DNA of 64,000 nucleotides, from assembly GCA_028875575.1 (NCBI GenBank), contig JAPPDF010000037.1, positions 1-64,000 on the forward strand, in the 5' to 3' direction. Source of the stretch: Acidobacteriota bacterium (lineage in GTDB: Bacteria; Acidobacteriota; Terriglobia; Versatilivoradales; Versatilivoraceae). Each line of letters starts with the position of its first letter. The first letter of the stretch is position 1. Position numbers and translations under genes: made by a program. Below the pieces are notes generated by a model, which did not search any database, was not told the origin of the DNA, and was given only the letters and a program-made list of their open reading frames with translations. Shown one piece after another: positions 29,595-41,606 of this stretch.

Positions 29595-30989
29595 TCAGTC
29601 ACGATCCTCCTCTTCCGGCATCAAGACGAACTCGGGGTAGGCTTCGATACCCAACTCCCCGGCGTCCTGGCCCAGTTGCTCGACCTGGCGCGTCACCCGT
29701 GCCGTCAAGATCAGATCCAGCAATCGCCACAGCACCCAGGAACTTGCGAAGACGAAGGCTCCGATGGCCAGGATGCCGATCAGTTGCACACCGAGCCCGC
29801 CGCCCCCGGCGATGCAGGCAGCCAGAGTTCCCCAGATTCCTGCGAACAGGTGGGCCGGGATGGCTCCCACCACGTCATCCAGCTTGACCTTCTCCAGGAG
29901 CTTGAGTCCGGCGGTGCACACCATGCCTCCGATGGCGCCGATGATCACGGCCCAGTAGTGCTCCACGATGTCGGGCGCGGCGGTGATCGAGACCAGTCCC
30001 GCGATGGCGCCGTTCAGTCCGGCAAACAGGTCCATGCGCCCCAGTATGGGCCGCGAGACAGCCAGAGCCATCATGACTCCGGCGGCTGCCGCCAGGTTGG
30101 TGTTGACCAGCACGTGGCTCATGGCGATGACATCGGCCGCGCTCCCCAGCGCCAATTGCGAGCCACCGTTGAAGCCGAACCATCCGAACCAGAGGATGAA
30201 CACTCCCAGGGTCACTGCCAGGATGTTCGAGGGCGGAGTAGGCTTGGTAGTTCCGTCCTTGCGGAATTTGCCATACCTCGGTCCGACCACCATGGCTCCC
30301 GCAAGCGCCGCCCATCCCCCGGTGCTGTGCACGATGGTCGAGCCGGCAAAGTCCGTGAAGCCCATTGCGTTCAGCCAGCCCCCGCCCCAGGTCCAGGCGC
30401 CCACGATGGGATAGATGACGCCGGTCAGCAGGAGCGTGAAGACGAAAAACGGCCACATCTTGACCCGTTCCGCCAGTGTTCCCGACACGATGGAGGCAGC
30501 GGTAGCCACGAAAACCATCTGGAAAAACCAGTCCGACATGGTGGAGTAGCCCTTCTTGAGCAGTTCGGCTGACGGTGCAGCGGCCTCGGTTGCGGCCAGC
30601 AGAGCGACCTCGGTCTCCGAGGGCCCGTAAAGGAGCTTGAATGAGCCGATCACGCTACCCACGTCGACATACATGAGGTTGTAGCCGATGAAGTAGTAGG
30701 CCAACCCCGCGATGGAGTAGAGGCCAATGTTCTTCAGGCAGATCATCGAGGCGTTCTTGGTGCGCACCGAGCCCGATTCGAGCATGGTGAATCCCGCGCA
30801 CATCCACATCACCAGGGCGCCCCAGAGGAGAAAAGAAAAGGTGTTGAAGACAAACACGACTTCGCTTTCGATCGCTGCTTGTGCCGCCGTGGTTCCAAGC
30901 AGCAGGCAGCCAACCAGGAGGAGTGTCTTTCCCGCCAGGCTGCCGGCGCGGCCTTTGTTCAAGAATCCGTTCATCACTGTTTTTGCCAT
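29595..30989 (-). CDS. amt: ammonium transporter, Amt family
   Basis: 464 residues from the ATG at 30989, with an N-terminal signal-like segment (LLLVGCLLLGTTAAQA) and about 11 membrane helices. Conserved Amt features include WGALVMWMCAGFTMLESGSVRTKN, DFAGSTIVHSTGGWAALAGA with the first pore His, WFGWFGFNGGSQLA, and IPAHLFAGIWGTLA with the second pore His. It imports ammonium. No glnK (PII) gene is adjacent, which is the more usual partner. Instead it lies between the ATP-grasp and alpha-E genes, all on the same strand. Confidence 0.96.
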   Translation of the reverse strand: MAKTVMNGFLNKGRAGSLAGKTLLLVGCLLLGTTAAQAAIESEVVFVFNTFSFLLWGALVMWMCAGFTMLESGSVRTKNASMICLKNIGLYSIAGLAYYFIGYNLMYVDVGSVIGSFKLLYGPSETEVALLAATEAAAPSAELLKKGYSTMSDWFFQMVFVATAASIVSGTLAERVKMWPFFVFTLLLTGVIYPIVGAWTWGGGWLNAMGFTDFAGSTIVHSTGGWAALAGAMVVGPRYGKFRKDGTTKPTPPSNILAVTLGVFILWFGWFGFNGGSQLALGSAADVIAMSHVLVNTNLAAAAGVMMALAVSRPILGRMDLFAGLNGAIAGLVSITAAPDIVEHYWAVIIGAIGGMVCTAGLKLLEKVKLDDVVGAIPAHLFAGIWGTLAACIAGGGGLGVQLIGILAIGAFVFASSWVLWRLLDLILTARVTRQVEQLGQDAGELGIEAYPEFVLMPEEEDRD

Positions 30990-31156
30990 AGGTGCCCCCT
31001 GATCTGTCGAGAAGTAACGGTGAGACGACCAACAGTACTTTGCATCTACCCTTGACCGCTGCCGCAAGAAATGCTTCGGCAGGATTCGATTTCACCTGTC
31101 GGCCCGGCGGTGGGAGCGCTCTTTCCGGCCTGGCAGCCTTGAAGCGCCCACCCGAT

Positions 31157-32590
31157 TCAATCTTCCAGGACCCAAAGGTCCTTTCCTCCACCGCCCTGGC
31201 TGGAGTTCACCACCAGGCTGCCACGCCGAAGAGCCACCCGGCAGAAGGCCCCGCCCACCAGGCGCGTCTTGGTCCCGTGGAGCACGAAGGGGCGCAGGTC
31301 CACGTGCCTGGGCTCGGGACGGCCCTCGATCAGGCAGGCTGCGCGTGACAGCGGCAGCACCGGCTGGGAGATGAAGTCGGCCGGGTCGGCGCGCATCTGC
31401 CTGGCATAGGCCTCGCGCTCCTCGGGGGTTGAGTGGGGACCGACCAGCATCCCGTACCCTCCGGACTCGCCGACCCGCTTCACCACCAGGTTCTCCAGGT
31501 TGTCCAGGGTGTATTCGAGCCCCTCGGGCCGACGGCACAAGTGGGTTTGGACGTTGCCCAGGATCGGTTCCTCTCCCAGATAGTAGCGAATCATGTCGGG
31601 GACGTAGGCATAGACGCTCTTGTCGTCCGCGATGCCCGTTCCGGGGGCGTTGACGACGGCCACATTGCCGAGCTTGTAGGCGTGGATCAACCCGGGCACG
31701 CCCAGCAGCGAGTCTTCGCGGAAGACCAGGGGATCGAGAAAGTCGTCGTCCACCCGCCGGTAGACCACGTCCACGCGCCGCAGTCCCTTGGTGGTGCGCA
31801 TGTATACGAAACCGTCTTTTACCAGCAGGTCGCGGCCTTCCACAAGTTCCGCGCCGATCTCCCGGGCCAGGAACATGTGTTCGTAGAAGGCGGAGTTGTA
31901 GACTCCCGGCGTCAACAGCGCAATGCAGGGGTCGTTTCGGCCGCCCGGCGAGAGCTCGCGCAACGTCTCCTGCAGCAGGCGCCCGTAGTGCTCGACCCCC
32001 CGCACCCGGGAACTTCGGTACAGTCGGCGCAGGCTGGTCTTGACCACTTTGCGGTTTGCGATCATGTAGGAAACGCCCGAAGGCACCCTCAGGTTGTCTT
32101 CCAGCACCACGAAGCCCTGGTTGGTACGCACCAGGTCGGTGCCGCAGATGGCGACCCAGGTTCCGTGAGGCACGTTGACGCCGCACATTTCGCTGCGGTA
32201 CTGGGGGCAGCCGCGCACAACGTCCACCGGAATCACACCGTCGTCGATGATGCGGGCCTTCCCGTAGACATCATTCAGGAAGCGGTTCAGGGCCGTGAGG
32301 CGTTGCGTCAGGCCGATTTCGAGATGCTTCCACTCGACAGCCGGCAGGATCCGAGGCAGGCAGTCGACCGGGATAATCCGCTCGTTGGCTTCGGCGTCCC
32401 CGTAGACAGTGAAGGAGATGCCTTCGTTCGAAAAGGAACGGGTGACCCGCTCCTGGATGCTGCCGATCTCGTCACTGGAGAGTTGGCACAGGGTCTCGTA
32501 GAGCAATCGGGAATGCTCCCGGGGCTCGCCGTTCGGCTGAAGCATCTCGTCGTAGATCCCGTCGTCAAGATCGTAGCCGGCAAAATCCAT
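31157..32590 (-). CDS. circularly permuted type 2 ATP-grasp protein (DUF404/DUF407)
   Basis: 477 residues. Typical blocks include EHSRLLYETLCQLS, VYGDAEANERIIPVDCLPRIL, RGCPQYRSEMCGVNVPHGTWVAICGTDLVR, NLRVPSGVSYMIANRKV, and the ATP-binding LVVKRVGESGGYGMLVG. The end is NSSQGGGGKDLWVLED, the usual C-terminus. The fold predicts an amide- or peptide-bond-forming ligase. Its conserved neighbours alpha-E and transglutaminase follow on the same strand, with amt between them. It is divergent from the formate dehydrogenase operon (178-base gap). The substrate is unknown. Confidence 0.92.
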   Translation of the reverse strand: MDFAGYDLDDGIYDEMLQPNGEPREHSRLLYETLCQLSSDEIGSIQERVTRSFSNEGISFTVYGDAEANERIIPVDCLPRILPAVEWKHLEIGLTQRLTALNRFLNDVYGKARIIDDGVIPVDVVRGCPQYRSEMCGVNVPHGTWVAICGTDLVRTNQGFVVLEDNLRVPSGVSYMIANRKVVKTSLRRLYRSSRVRGVEHYGRLLQETLRELSPGGRNDPCIALLTPGVYNSAFYEHMFLAREIGAELVEGRDLLVKDGFVYMRTTKGLRRVDVVYRRVDDDFLDPLVFREDSLLGVPGLIHAYKLGNVAVVNAPGTGIADDKSVYAYVPDMIRYYLGEEPILGNVQTHLCRRPEGLEYTLDNLENLVVKRVGESGGYGMLVGPHSTPEEREAYARQMRADPADFISQPVLPLSRAACLIEGRPEPRHVDLRPFVLHGTKTRLVGGAFCRVALRRGSLVVNSSQGGGGKDLWVLED

Positions 32591-32768
32591 GAAGCCGCGC
32601 GCTCTCGGGGAGGTTATCGGAGGACCTGATTCTGATTCGCGGCATTATCCGGCGTCATGCGGCCGTTGTCAATCCGGTCTGTCCACCGGGGACTTGCGCT
32701 TGCATCGGTTCCGGTTGTAACGGTAGACTCATGAGCCCGTGGAATTCAGGGGCGAAAGGAAGGCTTTC

Positions 32769-34679
32769 ATGCAGTGGAAACGAGGCGAGCGGCTGACCGA
32801 GCCTCTGGTGAGGGACGGCGCCGGTCTTCGCCCGGCAGGTTGGGACGAAGCGCTGGAACGGGCCGCTCGAGGGTTTCAGAGGGCTGCCAGGGACAAGGGG
32901 CCGCAGGCTTTCGGGATGTTCAGTTGCTCCAAGACCACCAACGAGCTCAACTTCGCCGCCCAGAAGTTCGTTCGTACAGTCATTGGCAGCAACAACATCG
33001 ACAGTTGCAACCGCACTTGACACGCTCCCAGCGTCGTCGGTCTGGCGACGGTTTTCGGGATGGGTGGCGGCACCAGTTCCTACCAGGAAATCGAGGATAC
33101 CGATCTCATCCTGCTGTGGGGATCCAACGCCCGCGAAACGCACCCGATCTTCTTTCATCACGTGCTGAAGGGAGTGAAACGCGGAGCCCGGCTCTTCGTC
33201 ATCGACCCCCGCAGAACCAGTTCGGCCCAGTGGGCTGACGGTTGGCTAGGTCTCGAGGTGGGCAGCGACATTGCCCTGTCCAACGCCATGGCCCGGGAAA
33301 TCCTGGATGCCGGCCTGGAGAATCGGACCTTCATCGAGCATGCCACCAGCGGCTTCGACGAATACTGTCGCTCGCTGGAGTCCTACACGCTGGAACGGGG
33401 TGAGCGGGAAACCGGGGTTCCCGCCGAGAGCATTCGGAAGCTGGCTCACGAGTACGCTCGGGCAGAAAGAGCCGAACTGTGCTGGACACTGGGGATTACC
33501 GAGCACCATAACGCCGTCGACAACGTGCTGGCCCTGATCAACCTGGCGCTGTTGACGGGTCACGTGGGTAAATACGGGAGCGGGCTGAATCCACTGAGGG
33601 GTCAGAACAACGTCCAGGGAGGCGGCGACATGGGCGCCATTCCCGACCGGCTTCCCGGATTTCAGCACGTGGAGAACGACGAGCTCCGCTCCCGCTTCGA
33701 ACAGGCCTGGGGAGTAAAGATCCCCCCCAAGCGGGGCCTGCACCTCAGCGGAATGTTCGACGCCATGGAGGAAGGCAAGCTGACGGCGCTCTATGTTCTG
33801 GGAGAGAACCCGGCGGTATCGGAGGCCGACCAGGGACGGGCTCTGCGTCTCCTTGGGGGGCTGGATTGCCTGGTCGTGCAGGACCTGCTCATGACGGACA
33901 CCACGGCCATCGCCGACGTTGTCCTGCCGGCTGCGGCCGGCTGGTGCGAGTCGGAAGGCACCGTCACCAGCAGCGAACGCAAGGTGCAGCGCGTTCGCCG
34001 GGCGCTGTCCTCGCCGCCCGGAGTGAAGGACGACCTGGACATCCTCTACGAATTGGCCCGCCGCCTGGGAAGCGACTGGGGCCAACCGGAACCGAAGCGC
34101 ATCTGGGACGAGCTCCGCGGCCTCAGTCCCATGCATCGCGGAATGAGCTACGAGCGGCTGGAAGCCCTTGACGGCATTCGCTGGCCTTGTTATGACGAGT
34201 CGCATCCAGGCGAGCTCTACCTGCACAGCCGACTGTGGCAAGAACCCCTGTTGGGGCCGCAGGCGCCCTTCAGTCCGGTTGAATTCGAACCCCCCGTGGA
34301 CGAGTTGAACGATCGGTTTCCTCTCAGACTCACCACCGGCAGGCGTCTGGATTCCTACAATACCGGTGCCCAGACCTTGTCCTTTTCCTCTCCCCTCCGG
34401 CGGGGAGAATCATTGGATCTGTCTCCCGAAGACGGTGAGCGCTATGGGGTGCTGGAGGGGGAACGGGTCAAGGTGGTCTCGCGCCGCGGCTCGGTCATTG
34501 CTCCGGTCCGTTTCGATACCGGTCTCCGCCCCGGTCTGGCCTTCATGACCCTGCACTTTCCGGACGAGGTTCAGACCAACCAGCTCACCATCGACGCCGT
34601 CGACCCCAAGTCTGGCACCGCAGAGTTCAAGGCCTCTGCAGTTCGCATTGTCAAGCTTGCGGCTTCTCAGCCGGGCTAG
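32769..34679 (+). CDS. formate dehydrogenase alpha subunit, molybdopterin catalytic part, with in-frame TGA (selenocysteine)
   Basis: About 636 residues when the TGA at 33018-33020 is read as selenocysteine. ATG at 32769 follows GGAAGG by five bases. The sequence around the TGA is DSCNRT-U-HAPSVVGLATVFG, exactly where FdhF-type enzymes carry Sec or Cys followed by the essential His. Both sides stay in one frame, and the downstream part has strict FDH blocks (WTLGITEHHNAVDN, YGSGLNPLRGQNNVQGGG, GDMGAIP). The protein lacks the N-terminal Fe4S4 domain, which is encoded separately at 36684-37712. The C-terminal Mo-binding domain is complete. The TAG stop is formed by the flank of a MITE-end palindrome. 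Confidence 0.93.
33021..33062 (+). promoter_or_regulatory. bacterial SECIS-like element for the fdh TGA codon
   Basis: Directly after the TGA the mRNA can form a seven-base stem, CGUCGUC (33032-33038) with GGCGACG (33044-33050), capped by the loop GGUCU. Outer CCC (33027-33029) may pair with GGG (33057-33059). The loop lies 18 bases after the TGA; from memory, the E. coli fdhF SECIS has GGUCU in its loop at the same distance. A SelB-type recognition element is therefore plausible. Confidence 0.82.
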
Positions 34680-34697
34680 TGTTCCGAGACGGGACAC
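34679..34697. repeat. family-A MITE end palindrome (deletion remnant)
   Basis: GTGTTCCGAGACGGGACAC, flanked on both sides by TA. The right 12 bases match the family-A end GAGACAGGACAC with one change, and the first six match the other end (GTGTTC). It looks like an element reduced to its joined tips. The left TA plus the first G form the TAG stop of the fdh catalytic gene. Confidence 0.65.
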
Positions 34698-34743
34698 TAT
34701 GGACGCGTCGACCACCCGGCCGGGGTAGCCGAGGAGTCCACCG

Positions 34744-36615
34744 TTGGATCTTCACATTGCGGGTCAATCTCCGGACCGGGACGAGCGGTCCGCCGTCGAC
34801 AGCGTCCTGGGTCCCCTGCAGGACGGGAAGGCGGAAAGCTATCACCTCCAGCAAGAACGGCCGGAGCGGTCTCAGAGGCACCTGCTGCTTCCGGTTCTCC
34901 ACGCCATCAACAGCCGCGTCGGCTGGATCAGCCCCGGAGCCCTGAACTACGCCTGCAGCCGGTTGAACCTCCCTCCTGCCGAAGCCTTCGGCGTCGCCAA
35001 TTTCTACGGGCTCTTCTCAATGAATCGGCGGCCCAGGGTCGTCATTCACGTGTGTGACGACATTGCCTGCCTGATTCGGGGAGCGCCTGAGATCTGCGAG
35101 CACCTGGCGGGCCGCCTGGGCCCGCCCGGAGCGGCCGAGCCCTCGGACAAGATCACCTGGCTCAGGAGTCCCTGCCTCGGCCTGTGCGAGCGCGCCCCGG
35201 CTGCCCTGGTCTCGGCGGCCGGCCCCAAGCCCTGGGAATGCGCTTTGGCGCCAACCACGGCAGATACCGTACTGGCTGCAGTGGACCAGCCGGAACGCGA
35301 ACCGGAGCCGCCTCCCGTGCCGACGTCACTCAGCGTCCCGCAACAGGGTCAACCGGGGTTGCGCCTGCTGCGCCGCGTCGGCCGCTTGCAGCCGGAGAGC
35401 CTGCAGGATCATCTGGCCCAAGGGGGGTATGAGGCCTTGAGGCGGGCAGTGGGCATCGGTCCAGAGCGGGTCATTCGAGAAGTCAACGATTCCAAGCTGG
35501 TGGGAAGGGGCGGGGCGGCCTTTCCCGCCGGGCGGAAATGGGAGGCGGTCTACCGTGCCCGTTCCTCCCAGCCGGTCCGTTACCTGGTCTGCAACGCGGA
35601 CGAGTCGGAGCCCGGAACTTTCAAGGATCGGGTGATCATGGAGGAAGATCCCTATCTCCTCATCGAATCCATGACCATTGCCGGGCTGGCCACCGGCTGC
35701 CAACAGGGTTACCTCTACATCCGCGGAGAATATCCCCTGGCTTTCGAGCGCTTGAGCCACGCCATCCGCCAGGCCAGGCACCACGGTTTCCTGGGAAAGA
35801 GGATCCTGAATATGGACCTGTCCTTCGACATCGAGATCCGCCGGGGAGCAGGCGCATACATCTGTGGCGAGGAGACGGCGCTGTTCAACTCGATCGAGGG
35901 CTATCGGGGAGAGCCCCGAAACAAGCCACCCTTCCCCACCGAGGTCGGCCTGTTCGGTCGTCCCACCCTGGTCAACAACGTCGAGACCCTGGTCAACGTT
36001 CCGGGTATCGTCCTGTGGGGAGGACAGTCCTTTGCCACCATCGGGACTCCCCGGTCGACAGGAACCAAGCTGTTCTGTCTCTCCGGCCATGTCGGTCGGC
36101 CGGGAGTGTATGAGGTCCCCTTCGGCGCCAGCCTGGCAAGCCTGCTGGAGCTGGCGGGGGGAGTGGGCGGTAGCGGCCGGCTGCAGGGTGTCCTGATCGG
36201 AGGTGCGGCCGGGACCTTCCTTACTCACAGGGAACTGGATACCCCGATGACCTTCGAAGGTACCCGGGCGATCGGCGCCGCCCTCGGCTCGGCCGTGGTG
36301 ATGCCCTTTGACGACAGTGTGGATCTGAGTAAAATCCTTCTGAGAATCGCGGCCTTTTTCCGTGACGAGTCCTGCGGCCAATGCGTTCCTTGCCGGGTCG
36401 GCACGGTGAGACAGGAGGAAGCCCTGTCCCGCATGTTCGGGGGGAATGTTCAGGGAGTGGGACGGGCGCCGTTGCAGTTGGCCGAGATCGGCCAGGTCAT
36501 GAGCGACGCGTCCATTTGCGGGCTCGGGCACACCGCTTCCAGCGCCATCCAGTCCGCTCTGGCGCGCTGGGGGGAGTTTGAGGGTCTCCGCCAAGGGTCG
36601 AATCCGGAGGATTAG
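34744..36615 (+). CDS. NuoE-NuoF fusion, formate dehydrogenase diaphorase subunit
   Basis: 623 residues beginning at TTG 34744, with GAGGAG seven bases upstream. Residues about 40-180 are a NuoE/thioredoxin-like 2Fe-2S domain with cysteines in HVCDDIACL and SPCLGLCERAP. Residues about 215-610 are NuoF: GRGGAAFPAGRKW and NADESEPGTFKDR for FMN/NADH, GAGAYICGEETALFNS, and the 4Fe-4S ligands ESCGQCVPCRVGT with a later Cys in SICGLGHTA. It should pass electrons between formate oxidation and NAD(P). It is the middle gene of the fdh operon. Confidence 0.93.
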   Translation: MDLHIAGQSPDRDERSAVDSVLGPLQDGKAESYHLQQERPERSQRHLLLPVLHAINSRVGWISPGALNYACSRLNLPPAEAFGVANFYGLFSMNRRPRVVIHVCDDIACLIRGAPEICEHLAGRLGPPGAAEPSDKITWLRSPCLGLCERAPAALVSAAGPKPWECALAPTTADTVLAAVDQPEREPEPPPVPTSLSVPQQGQPGLRLLRRVGRLQPESLQDHLAQGGYEALRRAVGIGPERVIREVNDSKLVGRGGAAFPAGRKWEAVYRARSSQPVRYLVCNADESEPGTFKDRVIMEEDPYLLIESMTIAGLATGCQQGYLYIRGEYPLAFERLSHAIRQARHHGFLGKRILNMDLSFDIEIRRGAGAYICGEETALFNSIEGYRGEPRNKPPFPTEVGLFGRPTLVNNVETLVNVPGIVLWGGQSFATIGTPRSTGTKLFCLSGHVGRPGVYEVPFGASLASLLELAGGVGGSGRLQGVLIGGAAGTFLTHRELDTPMTFEGTRAIGAALGSAVVMPFDDSVDLSKILLRIAAFFRDESCGQCVPCRVGTVRQEEALSRMFGGNVQGVGRAPLQLAEIGQVMSDASICGLGHTASSAIQSALARWGEFEGLRQGSNPED

Positions 36616-36683
36616 CGGCCCCTCGGCTGTCGTCGGGATTCAGCAACGGTTCCGGAGAATCAAGGCGACTGCAATCGAAGATC

Positions 36684-37712
36684 ATGAACAAGAAAAACCC
36701 GGTGACGCAGGATAGTTTTTTCTTCAACGACTCGGCCCCCAACCCGACCGTCCCGGTGCCTCCCGGTCCGATTCCCGCGCCCCCGCCAGCGGCCCCCAGG
36801 AAAAAGGTTACCCTGACCATCGACGACAAGAAGGTTCGGGTTGCCGAAGGATCCACCCTTCTGGAGGCTTGCAGGACTCTGGGGATCGAAACACCCACCC
36901 TCTGCTATCTGGAAAACCTGAATCCTGTCAATGTCTGCCGCGTCTGCGTGGTCGAGCTGGAAGGGTCGCGGACTCTGGTTCCGGCCTGCTCCCGCCCGGC
37001 AGAAAACGGGATGGTGATCCGTACCGACAGCGAACGCGTCCGCCTGAGCCGTCGAATGGTCCTGGAGTTTCTGGCTTCCTCGGTCGATGTTTCCACCGCT
37101 CCCGAACTGCAGTCCTACCTGGAGCGCTATGGCGGGCAACCCGAGCGATACGGGCCCGCGGCGCCGTCGGCGGCAGCCGAAGAACCGGAAACGGAGCGGG
37201 CCGGAGCCCACTGCCCAACGGACGGCCAGACGGCGGCGACCGTGGCTCAGCCGGTCAAAATCGACAACGATCTCTATGTGCGGGACTACGGCAAGTGCAT
37301 CCTCTGCTACAAGTGCGTGCAGGCGTGCGGCGAGGAGGCTCAGAACACCTTCGCCATTGCCGTCGCCGGCCGCGGATTCGACAGCCGCATCTCCACCGAA
37401 TATTCGGTTCCCCTCCCGGATTCCGCCTGCGTCTACTGCGGGAACTGCATCGGGGTCTGTCCGACCGGGGCCCTGATGTTCAAGTCGGAATACGACATGC
37501 GTGAGGCGGGCACCTGGAAGGAATCCGAGCAAGAGCGCACCGACACCATCTGCCCCTACTGCGGAGTCGGTTGCACCCTCACCCTGCATGTGCAGGACAA
37601 CCAGATCGTCAAGGCCACCTCACCGCTCGACCAGGAGGTTACCCGCGGACATCTCTGCATCAAGGGCCGCTTCGGCTGGCAGTTCGTGCGCGGGAAAGAC
37701 AAGAAGAAGTGA
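36684..37712 (+). CDS. formate dehydrogenase alpha subunit, N-terminal Fe-S part (NuoG-like) on a separate gene
   Basis: 342 residues. A Pro-rich start is followed by a 2Fe-2S domain (about 40-115: CYLENLNPVNVCRVC, later LVPAC). Two ferredoxin clusters come next (CILCYKCVQAC; CVYCGNCIGVCPTG), then a Molybdop_Fe4S4 domain (TICPYCGVGC, GHLCIKGRFGWQF) at the very C-terminus. In ordinary FDH alpha chains this last motif runs straight into the molybdopterin domain. Here the polypeptide stops after GKDKKK, and the rest is the first gene of the operon. The two products should assemble into one catalytic unit. Confidence 0.9.
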   Translation: MNKKNPVTQDSFFFNDSAPNPTVPVPPGPIPAPPPAAPRKKVTLTIDDKKVRVAEGSTLLEACRTLGIETPTLCYLENLNPVNVCRVCVVELEGSRTLVPACSRPAENGMVIRTDSERVRLSRRMVLEFLASSVDVSTAPELQSYLERYGGQPERYGPAAPSAAAEEPETERAGAHCPTDGQTAATVAQPVKIDNDLYVRDYGKCILCYKCVQACGEEAQNTFAIAVAGRGFDSRISTEYSVPLPDSACVYCGNCIGVCPTGALMFKSEYDMREAGTWKESEQERTDTICPYCGVGCTLTLHVQDNQIVKATSPLDQEVTRGHLCIKGRFGWQFVRGKDKKK

Positions 37713-38819: not shown

Positions 38820-41606
38820 ATGATGAAGAAAGCCAGCCGTCTCGGCTGTCTGGCCATGTTGGTGGCACTGCCCGGGTTACCCGCGACACTGTCGGCATTG
38901 GACCAGTCGGCCGGCCCTCGGCAGGAACAGTGCCTCGAGGTTCGGGTTCTGGATCCCTCCGCGGCATCGATCCCGAGCGCTACGGTCACCGTCGGTAATC
39001 GAGAGCAGATGACTGACAGCTCCGGTGTCGCCACCTTTTGCGGTCTAGGCCCCGGGCCACACCAGGTGGTGGTGTCGGCGGACGATTTTGAAGTTCATCA
39101 AGGTTCGGTGGAGACGTCCCAGGGCAGCATCACCGTCATCCTTCAGTTGCTCCTCGAGACCGAACTGGTGGTCGTCGGGAGCCGCGCCCAACCCCGGTCG
39201 GTGACCGAATCCCCCGTACCGATAGACGCCATCCCGCTGCAGGACGTCGTGAGCCAGGGATCCACCTCCCTCGACTACCAGTTGCGGACGCTGGTCCCGT
39301 CCTTCAACGTGGCCACCCATCCCATCAGCGACGCCGCCACCCTGGTGCGACCGGCCAGCCTGCGCAACCTGGCCCACGATCACACGCTGGTGCTGGTGAA
39401 CGGGAAGCGCCGTCACCGCTCCTCGGTCATCGCCTGGTTCGCCGGGGTGACGGATGGCGCCCAAGGTCCCGACATCGCGCCTATTCCCGCCATCTCGCTG
39501 CGCCAGGTGGAGGTGCTGCGGGACGGGGCCTCCGCCCAATACGGCTCGGACGCCATCGCCGGCGTACTGAACTTTCAGCTCAAGGATGCCCGAGAGGGGG
39601 GCAGCGTGGAGTTCAACACCGGAACCTATCGCGCCGGGGATGGGGATTCCTACACCATAGCCGCAAACATCGGGCTGCCCCTCGGCAAGAGCGGATTCGC
39701 CAACCTCAGCCTGGAATACGGCAACTCCGACCCCACCAACCGCAGCGTGCAACGCGCCGACGCGGCGGCCCTGATCGCGGCCGGCAACACGGCCGTGGCC
39801 AATCCGGCCCAAATCTGGGGCAACCCCACCATCGACGACGACGTGAAGTTCTTCGGTAACTTCGGCCACCCGTTTTCCAACTCCGTGCAGCTATACGGCC
39901 ACACCAATTATGCCGAGAAGAAGGTGACCGAGGGCTTCTACTTCCGGAATCCCAACAATCGGGCCAACATCTACAGCCTTGACGAAGGCAAGACCCTCCT
40001 GATCGGCGATGTGCTGGACGCGCGCGACGGAGTCCTTGACGGGTCCGCCAACTGTCCCGTGGTGCGGATCACCGACAACGTACCCGACCCCGAAGCCCTG
40101 GGGAGAGTGTTCGAGGATCCGAACTGTTTCTCTTTTCGGGAGATCGCCCCTGGAGGATTCACACCCCGGTTCGGGGGCGTGGTCACCGACATGTCGGTGG
40201 TGGGCGGCGTGCGCGGTGTTCTGGGTAACGGCATGAGCTGGGACGCCAGCGCCAGTTTCGGCGCCCATGAGTCCGACTTTTTCTTCCAGAATACGGTCAA
40301 CGCCTCACTCGGGCCCGACACGCCCCGGGAGTTCGACCCGGGACTCTACCGCCAGGAAGACACCAACCTCAATTTCGACGTCTCCTATGCCGCCACCGAC
40401 ATGGTCAACATCGCGGCCGGCACCGAGTGGCGCAGGGAGCGTTTCGAGATCGGCGCCGGCGGAAGACCCTCCTGGGAGGTAGGACCCTACGCCGCCCAGG
40501 GCTTCGTCTCCGGCTCCAACGGCTTTCCCGGATTTCCCGACTATACGGCCGGCGCCTGGAATCGCAGCAACGTGGCCCTCTACGGCGATCTGGAATTGCG
40601 GGATCCGGACGACCGCTGGACGGTGGGTGGCGCCCTCCGATTCGAGCACTTCGACCTCTTCGGCGCGACGACCAACGGCAAGCTGTCGGCCCGGCTGGGG
40701 CTGAGTAAAACCGTCTCCCTGCGGGGCGGTGTCAGCACCGGGTTCCGTGCTCCCACACCGGGCCAGCAGAACACGCTCAACGTGCAGACCACCATCGACC
40801 CCAAGACGCTGCAGTTGGTCGATAGCGCCAACGTGCCCTCCACCTTCCTGGCGGCGGAACTGAAGGGCGGCAAGCCGCTCGAGCCAGAGACCTCTGTAAA
40901 CACCACCGCGGGTCTGGTGGTCGACACCGGCCCCTTCACCTTGACTGCAGACTATTTCCGCGTCGACCTCTCCAACCGACTGGCACTGTCCCAAACCTTT
41001 ACGCTCACCGAGGACGAGCGCGCGCTGCTGCTCTCGGAGGGGATCGCCTCCGCCGGCACGCTGGCTTTCTTCCGGTTCTTCATCAACGACTTCTCCAGTC
41101 GAAATCAGGGCATCGACCTGGTCACAACCTACACCCCGGCGGAACTGGGAGGCGAGACTGTCTTCAGTTACGCGCTGAACTATACCCACACGCAGTTGAC
41201 GGAAGAGTCGGACCTGCTCACCCCCGGAGACGTGCTGGGGCTTGAACGTGGCGTTCCCCGAATCCGCTGGAACGCCGCCGTCACCCAGCGCCTGGGGCGG
41301 GTAGATTTGCTGGGCCGGGTGAACTATTTCGGCTCCTGGGTCGACCACTTCGACGCCCGCTTCGTCCGCGGCAAGGACTCGCCCCTGCTGGACGGGCGCC
41401 ACATCCTCGACCTGGAAGCGAGCATCTCCCTGACCGACAGCCTGAGGCTGGCGCTCGGCGGTCAGAACGTCTTCAACACCTTCTCCCAGCGGATGGACCT
41501 CTTCGCCAACATTTTCGGACTCCCCTACAGCCAGTTCACCCCCTGGGGCATGAGCGGCGGATACTACTACGCCCGAATCAACTACTCCTGGGGAAGCGGT
41601 TTTTAG
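38820..41606 (+). CDS. TonB-dependent outer-membrane receptor
   Basis: 928 residues; ATG at 38820 after GAGGAG. The signal peptide (RLGCLAMLVALPGLPATLSA) is followed by a carboxypeptidase-regulatory-like beta domain (LEVRVLDPSAASIPSATVTVGN). The plug domain follows (VPIDAIPLQDVVSQGS, LVNGKRRHRSS, RQVEVLRDGASAQYGSDAIAGVLNF), then a 22-strand-type barrel ending YARINYSWGSGF with terminal Phe. It should import a siderophore, cobalamin, sugar or similar compound using TonB. There is no neighbouring ABC transporter or TonB gene to identify the ligand. Its 3' end overlaps the convergent methyltransferase gene by 29 bases. Confidence 0.95.
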   Translation: MMKKASRLGCLAMLVALPGLPATLSALDQSAGPRQEQCLEVRVLDPSAASIPSATVTVGNREQMTDSSGVATFCGLGPGPHQVVVSADDFEVHQGSVETSQGSITVILQLLLETELVVVGSRAQPRSVTESPVPIDAIPLQDVVSQGSTSLDYQLRTLVPSFNVATHPISDAATLVRPASLRNLAHDHTLVLVNGKRRHRSSVIAWFAGVTDGAQGPDIAPIPAISLRQVEVLRDGASAQYGSDAIAGVLNFQLKDAREGGSVEFNTGTYRAGDGDSYTIAANIGLPLGKSGFANLSLEYGNSDPTNRSVQRADAAALIAAGNTAVANPAQIWGNPTIDDDVKFFGNFGHPFSNSVQLYGHTNYAEKKVTEGFYFRNPNNRANIYSLDEGKTLLIGDVLDARDGVLDGSANCPVVRITDNVPDPEALGRVFEDPNCFSFREIAPGGFTPRFGGVVTDMSVVGGVRGVLGNGMSWDASASFGAHESDFFFQNTVNASLGPDTPREFDPGLYRQEDTNLNFDVSYAATDMVNIAAGTEWRRERFEIGAGGRPSWEVGPYAAQGFVSGSNGFPGFPDYTAGAWNRSNVALYGDLELRDPDDRWTVGGALRFEHFDLFGATTNGKLSARLGLSKTVSLRGGVSTGFRAPTPGQQNTLNVQTTIDPKTLQLVDSANVPSTFLAAELKGGKPLEPETSVNTTAGLVVDTGPFTLTADYFRVDLSNRLALSQTFTLTEDERALLLSEGIASAGTLAFFRFFINDFSSRNQGIDLVTTYTPAELGGETVFSYALNYTHTQLTEESDLLTPGDVLGLERGVPRIRWNAAVTQRLGRVDLLGRVNYFGSWVDHFDARFVRGKDSPLLDGRHILDLEASISLTDSLRLALGGQNVFNTFSQRMDLFANIFGLPYSQFTPWGMSGGYYYARINYSWGSGF

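Follow-up and report, generated by a model that had tools for sequence, protein, structure and literature searches.

How is a TGA triplet read that stands at the active site of a gene resembling those of formate dehydrogenases (FDHs), and what kind of enzyme does that gene encode? These questions are raised by a 64,000-nucleotide stretch of an Acidobacteriota genome (GenBank assembly GCA_028875575.1, contig JAPPDF010000037.1, positions 1 to 64,000 of the forward strand; hereafter the window), in which the gene lies at 32769-34679 (+). The reading of UGA as selenocysteine (Sec) is a well-known device in formate-oxidising enzymes, and the active-site position of FDHs is known as either Sec or Cys. 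A preliminary description of the locus, made from the letters of the sequence, proposed a selenoprotein of the FdhF type with its own Sec insertion sequence (SECIS) hairpin. In this study, we report that the in-frame TGA is conserved among relatives, that the hairpin downstream of it is constrained, that the host genome carries the decoding genes, and that the alpha subunit of the enzyme is split between two genes, a split which is itself conserved. The catalytic protein is very probably a SECIS-directed selenoprotein of the ordinary kind, judging from its sequence and those of its relatives. We hold with high confidence that 32769-37712 would form a three-gene operon for a cytoplasmic, NAD-dependent Mo or W FDH, with Sec at the metal and its Fe4S4 cluster supplied in trans.

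The in-frame TGA and its conservation

The catalytic gene is a frame of 636 residues whose sole interruption under translation table 11 is the TGA at 33018-33020, and the frame continues across it without shift, as had been described. The codon corresponds to residue 84 in the context SCNRT-U-HAPSVVGL and is followed by the active-site His85; the conserved active-site Arg is residue 277 (33597-33599). Sec84, His85 and Arg277 were invariant in 83/83 sequences, as was the Arg-Gly-Gln motif of FDHs, and the metal-site motif of these enzymes (Sec or Cys then His, plus Arg; PMC8808070) is present in full. ORF calling yielded two pieces, 32739-33020 and 33060-34679, which is the truncation that had been predicted for a standard gene caller. 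Pfam Molybdopterin and Molydop_binding domains were matched in this gene without Molybdop_Fe4S4, and no Fe4S4 domain was found in frame upstream of 32769. The gene product covers positions 51-672 of TIGR01591 (Fdh-alpha) with 623.7 bits, the curated cut-off of 666.25 bits not being reached by this gene alone, and its AlphaFold model (pLDDT 73.6) gave its best match to E. coli FDH-H (1fdi) with a TM score of 0.83. The gene can be assigned on these grounds to the C-terminal part of an FDH alpha subunit, comprising the molybdopterin domains.

A scan of a genome collection returned 80 loci with 70-98% identity to the window enzyme; 83 sequences were compared at the codon level and 70 distinct sequences were used for stem pairing, the counts throughout referring to relatives and not to independent events. 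TGA was present at the site in all 80 scanned loci, in the context SCNRT*HAPSV[VA]GL, and in all 83 compared sequences; it was never replaced by Cys, and the reading frame was intact before and after it. Of 297 Acidobacteriota genomes sampled, 22 contained the split-type enzyme described below at 66% identity or more, all with TGA. Among 301 Chloroflexota genomes, TGA was found in 34 of the 34 matches of at least 60% identity that covered the codon, two further matches being fragments that begin after it; these matches were classed by identity, and gene order was checked in part of them. A few of the sampled genomes also contributed loci to the 80-locus scan, and the sets overlap slightly. TGC or TGT in close relatives had been named beforehand as a sign against Sec; no such relative was encountered, and none of the split enzymes compared had Cys there. 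Among one-chain relatives the site is occupied by Sec or Cys, and in one case by Gly. The Gly (GGC) occurs in an FDH-like protein (L135, G098:C119) which is possibly inactive as an FDH, like the form with Ser reported for Dehalococcoides (PMC5736913).

The SECIS hairpin and the decoding genes

The hairpin lies at 33032-33050 (+), directly 3' of the UGA. It consists of a stem of seven pairs (33032-33038 with 33044-33050) and an apical GGUCU loop at 33039-33043, both as previously described; the distance of 18 nt from the TGA is that to the first base of the loop, not to the stem. The GGUCU loop attributed to E. coli fdhF was read in the K-12 genome (NC_000913.3), where the GGTCT lies at the identical 18-nt spacing. 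Comparison of the minimum free energy of the hairpin with that of shuffled sequences was uninformative, and tests of codon constraint were used instead.

These tests revealed that the codons of the hairpin are the most conserved of their kind in the gene. The loop codon of Gly91 was GGT in 79/83 sequences, ranking first of 41 conserved Gly residues (the others use GGT in about 10%). Leu92 was CTG in 83/83 and Val89 GTC in 82/83, ranking first in codon conservation among 29 conserved Leu and 19 conserved Val, respectively, and the same rank was held by Ala93 (GCG; 29 conserved Ala) and Ser88 (AGC; 16 conserved Ser). Codons just outside the hairpin vary freely, both on its 5' side (Ala86, Pro87) and on its 3' side (Val95, Gly97). 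Among the distinct sequences the loop was GGTCT in 66/70 and GGGCT in 4/70, keeping an early G throughout. Stem pairs were retained at 96.5%, compared with 76.4 +/- 1.5% under a null model in which codons were drawn according to the family's own usage, and a fully paired stem was present in 53/70, where the null gave a mean of 6.3 and a maximum of 16. Two-sided changes were observed at the pairs 33035-33047 (C-G to A-U) and 33032-33050 (C-G to U-A). Moreover, the two Cys enzymes that keep the Gly-Leu of the loop encode the Gly by GGC, whereas Sec enzymes use GGT or GGG, which fits a requirement for the loop. The stem-loop is thus under selection.

The host genome (4.49 Mb in 101 contigs, estimated 100% complete) encodes SelA (526 bits), SelB (331 bits), SelD (344 bits) and a tRNA-Sec (69.4 bits), which ARAGORN calls as tRNA-SeC with anticodon TCA (UCA). 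All four genes whose search had been proposed as a check were therefore found in one genome, and the absence of selB or selC, which would have counted against Sec insertion, does not apply. The SelD gene (L020, G000:C52:502-1428) has an in-frame TGA of its own (SCAG-U-ASKL), and SelD is thus probably a selenoprotein too. The neighbouring genes are open under table 11 and contain no in-frame TGA. SelB (E <= 1e-60) was detected in 21 of the 22 split-enzyme genomes of Acidobacteriota and in 175 of the 275 others. It was also present in five of five further genomes (those of L029, L060, L080, L089 and L045), which include two chromosome-level records and the cultured Aquisphaera insulae. Together with the constrained hairpin, the decoding genes strongly support the earlier proposal that this lineage inserts Sec, and that it would do so at residue 84.

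Two alternative readings of the codon have to be weighed against Sec. The first is that the TGA stems from faulty sequencing, or marks a Cys-type gene inactivated by a nonsense mutation. Such an error is conceivable in a single draft genome, and ordinary ORF calling does see two ORFs here, but TGA was found in 83/83 sequences from independent assemblies, followed by strong codon constraint, in a host possessing SelA, SelB, SelD and tRNA-Sec; the conservation of the TGA refutes this explanation, whose probability we regard as negligible. Translation of the TGA as some other amino acid, through genome-wide recoding or ordinary read-through, has the open frame as the only point in its favour. Against it stand the complete Sec machinery including tRNA-Sec(UCA), the SECIS constraint, the presence of Sec or Cys known for this FDH position and the lack of in-frame TGA in neighbouring genes; it was rejected, and is very improbable.

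The split alpha subunit and its probable operon

The catalytic gene is followed on the same strand by a gene for a fused NuoE-NuoF-like diaphorase subunit at 34744-36615 (+), with thioredoxin-like 2Fe-2S, FMN/NADH and 4Fe-4S domains (Pfam 2Fe-2S_thioredx, Complex1_51K, SLBB and NADH_4Fe-4S), and by a third gene at 36684-37712 (+), which encodes the N-terminal part of an alpha subunit as a separate protein. The latter contains NuoG-like 2Fe-2S and 4Fe-4S ferredoxin domains (Pfam Fer2_4 and Fer4) and a C-terminal Molybdop_Fe4S4 domain (residues 285-335), and its residues 288-340 match positions 1-53 of TIGR01591 with 54.3 bits. Its alignment with FdsA-type alpha subunits spans residues 18-308 of those chains, and that of the first gene begins at their residue 307. 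Since the first gene covers model positions 51-672 and the third positions 1-53, the alignments indicate that the alpha subunit is cut at the border of the [4Fe-4S] domain (TIGR01591 position ~52), with its parts in reversed order. The preliminary description was right in recognising the Sec-His site of FdhF, but a self-contained enzyme of the FdhF type was rejected, since the [4Fe-4S] domain comes from the second gene downstream of the catalytic one. In place of a single chain with NuoG-like, Fe4S4 and catalytic parts, two reversed genes were found, and the order catalytic part, NuoEF, N-terminal part on one strand was observed in 70/70 loci from several phyla, these being the loci complete enough to show it, with the window included. 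The split layout is kept in many soil and marine bacteria. In the third gene product, the cluster ligands Cys290, Cys293, Cys297 and Cys325, and Lys327 after the last Cys, were invariant in 65/65 sequences.

The enzyme most likely works as follows. SelB and Sec-tRNA would bind the hairpin downstream of the UGA at 33018-33020, which would be decoded as Sec, and the Sec would ligate Mo or W. Formate would be oxidised by the first gene product at its Sec-His-Arg site. In contrast to the solved FDHs, the [4Fe-4S] cluster through which the electrons leave would be provided in trans by another chain, the third gene product, whose C-terminal domain is presumably docked onto the catalytic protein. The ferredoxin clusters of this third protein would then relay the electrons to the NuoEF fusion with its FMN and on to NAD+, NAD being suggested as acceptor by the NuoF domain. 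The path is modelled on FdsABG and MeFDH1 (PMC7171172, PMC10869683), and a cytoplasmic location and Mo or W as the metal are likewise predictions.

Several observations weigh against this interpretation. The hairpin folds no better than its shuffled versions do (z-scores of -0.6 and -0.4), and all seven pairs survive in about 9% of synonymous recodings (in 0.8% together with the GGTCT loop), so that the single sequence by itself is no proof of a SECIS element, which is established by the comparison across the 83 sequences; among the 70 distinct ones, the bottom pair 33032-33050 is broken in 17. One genome with the split enzyme (G277, estimated 97% complete) has SelA (549 bits) and no SelB above the cut-off, its best match (192 bits) being an EF-Tu-like frame of 396 residues; this is probably a gap. 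FDHs usually need the sulfurtransferase FdhD, which was not found in the host genome, estimated as complete, with TIGR00129 and PF02634, nor with the same models in the split-FDH genomes G257, G153, G219 and G071. Since 17 of the 22 split-enzyme genomes of Acidobacteriota do have FdhD, its absence is no trait of the clade. Finally, the structure predicted by AlphaFold for the third gene product had a pLDDT of 48 and was too poor for docking.

A rival reading is that the two halves are not reassembled, the catalytic protein being Sec-dependent with an electron acceptor of its own, and the Fe4S4 domain of the third gene being a relic or serving another partner. In its favour, no complex of the halves could be modelled, but both halves and NuoEF always occur together in the same order (70/70), their break points match closely (1-53 and 51-672), and none of the cluster ligands varies, nor does the Lys that follows the last Cys; we consider it unlikely. 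A substrate other than formate, to which we would give slightly less credence still, might be suggested by the length of the branch that leads to the clade (1.27 changes per column), by the score of the first gene below the TIGR01591 cut-off (623.7 vs 666.25) and by the missing FdhD. However, the Sec-His and Arg-Gly-Gln motifs of FDHs are invariant in 83/83, the nearest solved structures by sequence and by fold are FDHs, and the model positions lacking in the first gene are found in the third, the two scores summing to 678. A formate-oxidising enzyme with its Fe4S4 domain in trans is the interpretation retained here.

Of the genes around the operon, those upstream lie on the opposite strand at 31157-32590 (-) and 29595-31067 (-), and encode a circularly permuted ATP-grasp protein and an ammonium transporter, with no link to FDH seen. 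Downstream, 38820-41606 (+) encodes a TonB-dependent receptor with a carboxypeptidase-like regulatory domain.

Origin of the clade and relation to known enzymes

A tree built by a quick method from a hand-picked sample, with 25 catalytic regions of the split type and 21 of the one-chain type, placed the split enzymes on one side of a branch with support 100, at the end of the long branch mentioned above. Nearest to them were three one-chain Sec enzymes of other Acidobacteriota (support 89), and on this tree a single change of architecture is enough. These three (L117-L119, from G008, G156 and G010) share with the window enzyme the Sec at the site, a similar downstream GGTCT and, in two of three, a nearby NuoF gene; they differ in being one chain, in the order NuoF, NuoG-like/Fe4S4, catalytic, and in having ~45% identity to it.

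Among characterised systems, the FdsABG alpha subunit has Cys at the site, and the beta subunit of MeFDH1 is a fused NuoE-NuoF. FdsABG of Rhodobacter capsulatus (PDB 6tg9, PMC7171172) has the NuoG-like Fe-S N-terminus, Fe4S4 domain, catalytic domains and NuoE/NuoF-type diaphorase in common with the window enzyme, but its alpha subunit is one chain of 958 residues spanning both halves, where the window has two reversed genes and Sec. MeFDH1 of Methylorubrum extorquens (PDB 7vw6, 8j83, PMC10869683) shares the catalytic fold and the Fe-S chain, and its alpha subunit, unlike that of the window enzyme, is again one chain. E. coli FDH-H (FdhF, L114; PDB 1fdi, 1aa6), which resembles the window enzyme in the Sec-His site, fold and placing of the loop, has its own Fe4S4 domain and works without a NuoEF partner, at 36% identity. 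In HylCBA-FdhA and FdhAB of anaerobes, FDH is joined to NAD-binding diaphorase and ferredoxin subunits, with Sec in some, and FdhA retains its Fe-S domains in the catalytic chain, unlike the window enzyme; such heterodimeric and HylCBA-type NAD-linked enzymes with an intact alpha chain have been described for Chloroflexi and clostridia (PMC5736913). FDH was the most numerous bacterial selenoprotein family in a 2006 count (103), which already included selenoproteins of Acidobacteria and Chloroflexi (PMC1794560). Sec FDHs of both groups were found in the open literature, where no description of a split, reordered alpha subunit was found, most subscription papers lying outside the search. The mechanism at the codon is known, and the architecture appears to be new.

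We consider it likely that these enzymes form a widespread, strictly Sec-dependent FDH clade, in which a single cut separated the [4Fe-4S] domain of the catalytic subunit from its molybdopterin domains and the two pieces came to lie, in changed order, on either side of the diaphorase gene. Electrons leaving the metal would then have to pass from one subunit to another in their first step. If the proximal cluster can be detached from the catalytic chain in this way, mixing experiments with the parts could probe what the cluster does, and the constant use of Sec in this clade would be a useful contrast to the Sec/Cys turnover of other FDHs. Annotation pipelines may harm the enzyme twice, by truncation at the TGA and by failing to recognise the alpha subunit, and formate oxidation in Acidobacteriota, Chloroflexota and Planctomycetota may thus be under-reported.
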